The notes beneath the pieces were generated by a model. That model was given only the letters and a program-made list of their open reading frames with translations, was not told the origin of the DNA and searched no databases. The position numbers and the translations under genes are program-made. Shown here one piece after another: positions 53,605-54,619 of a DNA stretch of 64,000 nt (positions within the stretch are counted from its first letter, which is position 1; the number at the start of each line of letters is the position of its first letter). Source of the DNA: Methanohalobium evestigatum Z-7303 (lineage in GTDB: Archaea; Halobacteriota; Methanosarcinia; Methanosarcinales; Methanosarcinaceae); the NCBI RefSeq assembly GCF_000196655.1, contig NC_014253.1:1-64000 (forward strand). The letters run 5' to 3'.

Positions 53605-53677
53605 GCCAAGGTGGCGGAGTGGCTTACGCAATCGCCTGCAGAGCGATGTGACCCCGGTTCGAATCCGGGCCTTGGCT
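53605..53677 (+). tRNA. tRNA-Cys (GCA)
   Basis: A 73-nt cloverleaf between 23S and 5S. The acceptor stem gccaagg/ccttggc has discriminator T (U73), typical of tRNA-Cys; anticodon GCA sits in atcgcctgcagagcgat; the T arm is ccggttcgaatccgg. No intron. Confidence 0.96.
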
Positions 53678-53694
53678 CTGGACTCACATTCACA

Positions 53695-53826
53695 GTGAGT
53701 ATGGCGGCCACAGCGGCGGGGTAACTCCTGTACCCATCCCGAACACAGCAGATAAGCCCGCCCGCGTTCCGTACGGTACTAAAGTGCGCGAGCCTTTGGG
53801 AACTGCGGATAGCTGCCATGCTCACT
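53695..53826 (+). rRNA. 5S ribosomal RNA
   Basis: Helix I is formed by agtgagtatggcggc at the 5' side and gctgccatgctcact at the 3' side. The conserved core cccatcccgaacac is present. It lies 17 bases after tRNA-Cys, and the ends are estimated from helix I. Confidence 0.93.
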
Positions 53827-53904
53827 TTACCTATCATTCACACACTACTACTTCTACTTGATTATAATCAATTTTTACAGATTATCCATTATTAAAAGAA
53901 ACTG

Positions 53905-53924
53905 GTAACTGGTTACTTTTTTTT
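53905..53924 (+). terminator. Terminator of the rRNA operon
   Basis: A short dyad gtaa/ttac is followed by eight T (53917-53924) and further T-rich sequence, about 80 bases after 5S. Confidence 0.5.
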
Positions 53925-53983
53925 ATTCTTCTTCTTAATTACAACTAATAACCTTAAGTTAAGTGGTCTACATTTTTACAAAC

Positions 53984-54151
53984 CCTTGATATCAGGTTAA
54001 TGTATTTAAAAAAAGTATATTATTGCCTTGATATCAGGTTAATGTATTTAAAAAAAGTATATTATTGCCTTGATATCAGGTTAATGTATTTAAAAAAAGT
54101 ATATTATTGCCTTGATATCAGGTTAATGTATTTAAAAAAAGTATATTATTG
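53984..54151. repeat. Four exact 42-bp tandem repeats
   Basis: Units at 53984-54025, 54026-54067, 54068-54109 and 54110-54151 are identical with no spacers. Each contains a near-palindrome (ccttgatatcagg) and an A7 run, which is T7 on the minus strand. It fills the gap between the convergent rRNA operon and the NAC gene. 42 bp equals four turns of B-DNA, so equivalent sites face the same side. It is not a CRISPR, as there are no unique spacers. Confidence 0.95.
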
Positions 54152-54207
54152 ATTACTGATTTTGATTTATAATAAAAAGAGAATAGAAGTAGTTAAGCAG
54201 GAATATT

Positions 54208-54567
54208 TTATTCTGAAGTTTCAGACAGTTTTGTAATAGCCTCTGCAAGATCACCTTTTGTATTTTTCAGGGCTTCTCTGGCGGCATCTTCAGATGTACC
54301 TGCCTGTTCGGCAACCATTTTAACATCATCATCAGGTATTTCAACTTCTCTTTCAACTTCCTCGGGGGTCCCAACTATTTGGTAGGTATCTACACCTTGG
54401 GCTGTCATTACAGTAACGCTTGCATCGTTGAAAACAATATCTTTGTCAGATTTCCTGATGATAACCTGCTCAACATCATTGATTTCTTCTGTACTTATAC
54501 CCATCTGTTTCATCATCTGTTTCATTTTGGAGGGATTCATCCCTCGACCGCCCATACCTGGAAACAT
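54208..54567 (-). CDS. Nascent polypeptide-associated complex protein (aNAC)
   Basis: A 119-residue ribosome-bound chaperone that meets emerging chains. The N-terminal region starts MFPGMGGRGMNPSKMKQMMKQMG, a NAC domain occupies about 25-75, and a C-terminal UBA domain (about 80-117) ends AREALKNTKGDLAEAITKL. Length and layout are exactly those of archaeal NAC. Confidence 0.93.
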   Translation of the reverse strand: MFPGMGGRGMNPSKMKQMMKQMGISTEEINDVEQVIIRKSDKDIVFNDASVTVMTAQGVDTYQIVGTPEEVEREVEIPDDDVKMVAEQAGTSEDAAREALKNTKGDLAEAITKLSETSE

Positions 54568-54619
54568 CTACTAATCACCTAAATTATACCTGATTTGATG
54601 TTACATTAAATTTTAAAAT

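Follow-up and report, generated by a model that had tools for sequence, protein, structure and literature searches.

Four identical 42-bp units stand side by side in the spacer between an rRNA operon and the gene for the nascent polypeptide-associated complex protein (NAC) of Methanohalobium evestigatum Z-7303, which raises the question of whether this regularity reflects a binding or replication element, a series of transcription terminators, or DNA that was copied in tandem without consequence.

Architecture of the Array and Its Surroundings

The four head-to-tail units fill positions 53984-54151, exactly 168 bp, of the window, by which is meant the whole 64,000-nucleotide stretch of DNA that was analysed. 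Located from the sequence and with Tandem Repeats Finder (period 42, 4.0 copies, 100% matches, score 336), they lie at 53984-54025, 54026-54067, 54068-54109 and 54110-54151, are not assigned to a strand, and are flanked on neither side by a partial fifth unit. With 4.0 copies at 100% identity the array is a minisatellite in the sense of at least three identical head-to-tail units, and chance cannot produce four perfect 42-bp copies. A CRISPR array was considered and rejected, as the units abut directly without unique spacers. The unit, CCTTGATATCAGGTTAATGTATTTAAAAAAAGTATATTATTG, contains 16 A and 17 T among its 42 bases, and each copy carries a GATATC near-palindrome together with a run of seven A (A7) on the rRNA strand. 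A perfect 8-bp palindrome, TGATATCA, is present in all four units, and an AT-rich imperfect inverted repeat (TAATGTATTT...AAGTATATTA) surrounds the A7 run on the rRNA strand.

The array occupies the spacer between two convergent genes, the 5S rRNA gene (53700..53821, + strand), which is the last of an rRNA operon with the order 16S, tRNA, 23S, tRNA, 5S, and the NAC gene (54208..54567, − strand), whose product has a NAC domain and a HYPK-type UBA domain; the nearest genes to the array are those for rRNA, NAC and an Fe-S biosynthesis protein. The tRNA gene between 23S and 5S lies at 53605-53677 and has counterparts in the second operon as well as in another genus of the family, g4. The description given in the initial annotation, of four identical 42-bp repeats between convergent genes with a GATATC near-palindrome and an A7 run in every unit, is thus borne out by Tandem Repeats Finder, by the gene calls and by all four units. 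Its further claim of phasing at four helical turns holds arithmetically, 42 bp being 4.0 turns at 10.5 bp per turn, but has a single unit length as its sole basis.

Occurrence of the Unit in the Genome and the Family

A search of the genome, which consists of two contigs of 2,242,317 and 163,915 bases with the plasmid included, returned no further copy of the unit or of a half-unit within three mismatches, and the unit is also absent from the region 3' of the second rRNA operon, where a different gene follows. The background of tandem repetition was sampled in the window and in 20 segments of 20 kb spread evenly over the same genome (464 kb in all), among which the 42-bp array scored highest. 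One other perfect array of at least 50 nt with at least three units was found in this sample, a 15-bp unit in 4.5 copies (TATTCTGCTTTCCGA; locus L054, 2638-2704, on the same chromosome, G000 C1 at about 1142638). Perfect arrays of this kind are rare in the genome, not unique.

Beyond the genome, exact pieces of the unit were found neither in viral contigs nor in GTDB genome contigs, a set that possibly does not include the window's own record. In 29 other loci of the family, the surroundings of NAC or 5S hold no 42-bp array like this one, the arrays there being mainly two-copy matches of 12-bp period; one locus (L006) holds perfect arrays of 9 bp (6.9 units) and 21 bp (two units). Titles and abstracts on the genus and tandem repeats contained nothing relevant to the array locus between 5S and NAC.

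Comparison with the Congener

The comparison within the genus was made with one genome, a draft of about 160 contigs (G005), which contains a 5S-NAC junction equivalent to that of the window with one copy of the unit (...TTTATAAACCCTGAAAACAAGGTTAATGTATTTAAAAAAGTATATTATTGATTACTGATTTTGA...). In an alignment of this copy with a single window unit, one indel separates the two over the 30 bp at the 3' end of the unit and about 14 bp beyond it, and the matching 30 bp take in the A-run and the flanking AT-rich inverted repeat. The 5' 12 bp of the unit, in which GATATC lies, and the flank on the 5S side diverge, the 12 bp strongly, while 9 of the 360 bases of the NAC gene differ. At the site of the palindrome the congener reads CCCTGAAAACAAGG and has no GATATC palindrome, which is, to judge by these two sequences, peculiar to the lineage of the window.

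Copy number thus varies between relatives, four versus one, in one comparison with a draft congener. Tandem repeats can collapse in assembly, which is a known problem (PMC9879509), and the single copy could in principle be such an artefact; the congener contig runs unbroken across the single-copy site, its end falling in the 5S gene instead. The presence of one copy at the equivalent place indicates that a single-copy piece of spacer DNA was recently multiplied in tandem, a lineage-specific event that came after the lineages split, and that the array is no conserved iteron or binding array; a recent expansion is among the possibilities that the initial annotation had raised. Shrinkage to one copy in the congener is the less likely alternative, because the four units are perfectly identical. 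Variability of the unit in relatives, which the initial annotation had named as the observation that would speak against its interpretation, was found in part, in that the congener has a differing sequence and one unit.

These findings bear directly on the proposal that proteins bind the array through its GATATC palindrome, at four sites that would share one helical face. The unit length of 4.0 turns and the presence of the 8-bp palindrome in each unit would suit such an arrangement, yet the congener copy lacks the palindrome, the unit recurs nowhere else in the genome or plasmid, and no regulator gene was found directly adjoining the array, so that this claim of the initial annotation is not sustained and protein binding of this kind appears very unlikely. 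The suggestion of an iteron-like or origin element fares worse still and is scarcely credible: short direct repeats within an AT-rich spacer are what such an element would offer, but the best chromosomal match to orc1/cdc6 lies at about 1.2 kb, about 53 kb away from the array at 54 kb, and none of the neighbouring genes examined encodes a replication initiator. The plasmid has its best orc1/cdc6 match at about 1.0 kb of its contig and does not carry the repeat. A search for distant DNA matches in plasmid and phage records returned nothing credible, barring one 74% AT-rich stretch at an E value of 0.005 that was taken as chance.

A structural RNA or an intrinsically bent DNA element is another reading to which we give very little credence. 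The rRNA-strand unit folds as an AT hairpin slightly better than its shuffles (z of −2.18), but this z-score is weak and the pairing leans on G-U and is confined to one strand, the other giving a z of −0.02; no Rfam match was found across the array. Bent DNA could draw on the four A7 runs, which are in helical phase, although phasing of A-tracts at least equal to that of the array is seen in 3.3% of all 168-bp windows and, where a window holds four or more tracts, in 5.2%; the phasing is somewhat high, not exceptional.

Two further observations concern the sequences around this spacer. The stretch that follows 5S in the window, at 53860-53925 (AATTTTTACAGATTATCC...AACTGGTAACTGGTTACTTTTT), is like the congener flank at the other rRNA operon (L034, G005 C87) and unlike that of its NAC-side operon, a resemblance which suggests that 3' flanks may have been exchanged between the two rRNA operons. 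In genus g4 the spacer between 5S and NAC holds a tRNA-like piece, GATTCGAATCCGAGCACCGG, and a further conserved stretch (locus L012, 580-700, with similar sequence in L008 and L020); the tRNA-like piece is perhaps a tRNA remnant or an integration scar.

Oligo-T Runs and Probable Transcription Termination

On the NAC strand (−) the A7 runs are read as T7 runs, which follow the stop codon of the gene at regular distances. The first run met downstream of NAC is a T5 outside the array (54174..54178, − strand, 30 nt after the stop), which has its counterpart in the T6 at +31 of the congener and is likely to be the first terminator of NAC. The T7 runs of the array come next on the same strand, in unit 4 (54134..54140, 68 nt after the stop codon), unit 3 (54092..54098, 110 nt), unit 2 (54050..54056, 152 nt) and unit 1 (54008..54014, 194 nt, read from the sequence). 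In the congener, the NAC stop is followed by T6 runs at +31, +70 and +117, and the T7 run of unit 4, a candidate back-up terminator, matches the one at +70.

Serial runs of this kind are common after NAC. Among 28 NAC loci, members of the family that include the window and are related and hence not independent, a run of at least five T lies no more than 50 nt after the stop in 27, whereas base shuffles gave 13.5 loci on average and 19 at most. Runs of at least five A are found on the sense strand in none of the 28 over the same 50 nt, and 20 of the 28 have at least two T runs of five or more within 100 nt. The locus thus has two features expected of an archaeal oligo-T terminator array, namely sense-strand runs of at least five T shortly after the stop codon and a run kept in relatives, both in the congener (T6 at +31 and +70) and in 27 of the 28 loci.

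In the Pyrococcus system the archaeal RNA polymerase needs no hairpin to stop at five to six T, and a histone gene studied there is followed by four serial oligo-T terminators, of which the later three were termed back-up (PMC2253867). Multiple consecutive terminators follow over a third of the analysed genes of Methanosarcina mazei and Sulfolobus, according to work cited in PMC7237163. The termination factor aCPSF1 of Methanococcus maripaludis binds U-tracts, more strongly where there are at least two U4 tracts (PMC8716108), and aCPSF1 is encoded in the genome of the window; the T7 tracts of the array are isolated and 42 nt apart, unlike the clustered tracts of the best aCPSF1 substrates.

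Because oligo-T runs are known archaeal terminators and are often serial, the array can be read as a set of NAC back-up terminators. We regard it as reasonably probable, from the sequence comparisons, that a recent expansion of a spacer segment from one copy to four multiplied a back-up terminator of NAC. In the model proposed here, slippage or unequal exchange would have raised a 42-bp AT-rich segment from one to four copies, and with it the second oligo-T run after NAC that the segment holds, so that one back-up terminator would have become four in series. A polymerase leaving NAC would then halt either at the T5 (+30) or at any one of the T7 runs, so that the transcripts would have nested 3' ends. 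Each unit would trim read-through slightly, and NAC transcription would thereby be kept from running antisense into the rRNA operon. The array, its uniqueness, the single copy of the congener and the enrichment of T runs after NAC in the family are observed; that termination actually takes place at these runs, and that the extra copies bring a benefit, is what we infer. It has to be noted that an efficient T5 at +30 would let few polymerases through to the array.

The main rival is a purely neutral minisatellite, in which slippage or unequal exchange amplified an AT-rich spacer whose extra copies are idle and whose T7 runs are incidental; slippage without effect is quite possible, and we hold it to be a serious, though clearly less probable, account of the array. 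It is favored by the existence of a congener without the array, by the uniqueness of the unit in the genome and by the T5 run that already follows NAC at +30. The perfect identity of the units would reflect youth instead of conservation, and is also what would be seen after an event that was purely neutral and very recent; the Borg elements of related archaea have tandem repeats that are described as recent, quick to evolve and of changing unit number (PMC9879509). The neutral account does not readily explain that the T run of the unit coincides in position with one kept in the congener, nor that NAC is regularly followed by serial T runs in this family, for which reasons the amplified segment is probably not free of function. 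A much stronger claim, that the identity of the array is held by selection, with a four-fold terminator that keeps antisense transcription from NAC out of a strongly transcribed rRNA operon and with copy number tuning the read-through, is improbable.

On the opposite strand the situation differs. The transcript of the rRNA operon meets T5 and T8 runs ahead of the array, and the T8 (53917..53924, + strand) is likely to be the terminator of the operon. The array itself cannot terminate the rRNA operon by oligo-T because that strand reads A7. The idea that the units are terminators insulating the rRNA operon from NAC is therefore plausible for the NAC strand, with its T7 runs, and not for the rRNA strand, with its A7 and its own earlier T5 and T8. 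A bacterial-type intrinsic terminator, with a G+C-rich hairpin and then a T run, was not found in 53820-54600. Three of the four units also contain matches to bacterial promoters, which are irrelevant in an archaeon.

Relation to Known Systems and Implications

The array is a small perfect tandem repeat of a known kind that carries a probable archaeal oligo-T terminator; it is real and ordinary. Intergenic minisatellites or VNTRs of bacteria and archaea have perfect head-to-tail units and copy numbers that differ between species, and for the array a difference in copy number is known here between species, from one comparison. The perfect tandem repeats of Borgs (PMC9879509) are alike, under the definition of that paper, in having at least 50 nt and at least three identical units and in being intergenic, AT-rich, unique and apparently recent, whereas the array is chromosomal and single, is not strongly A-biased and has no flanking partial repeats. 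In the genomes of Borg hosts, perfect tandem arrays are rare (PMC9879509). There is also a likeness to the histone gene hpyA1 of Pyrococcus furiosus, with its four consecutive oligo-dT terminators (PMC2253867): both have serial T5-T7 runs after a short gene that is presumably highly expressed, no G+C-rich hairpin is needed, and later runs would act as back-up. The runs on the NAC side differ from those of hpyA1 in that four of them come from the perfect tandem duplication of a 42-bp unit, and in that termination at them is putative.

The finding carries modest weight, as a clean natural tandem duplication of sequence with a probable archaeal oligo-T terminator. The array could be used for measuring how termination adds up over serial terminators. 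Units that are identical and perfectly spaced in one genome do not necessarily form a binding array, and one single-copy relative suffices to change the reading of such a locus.
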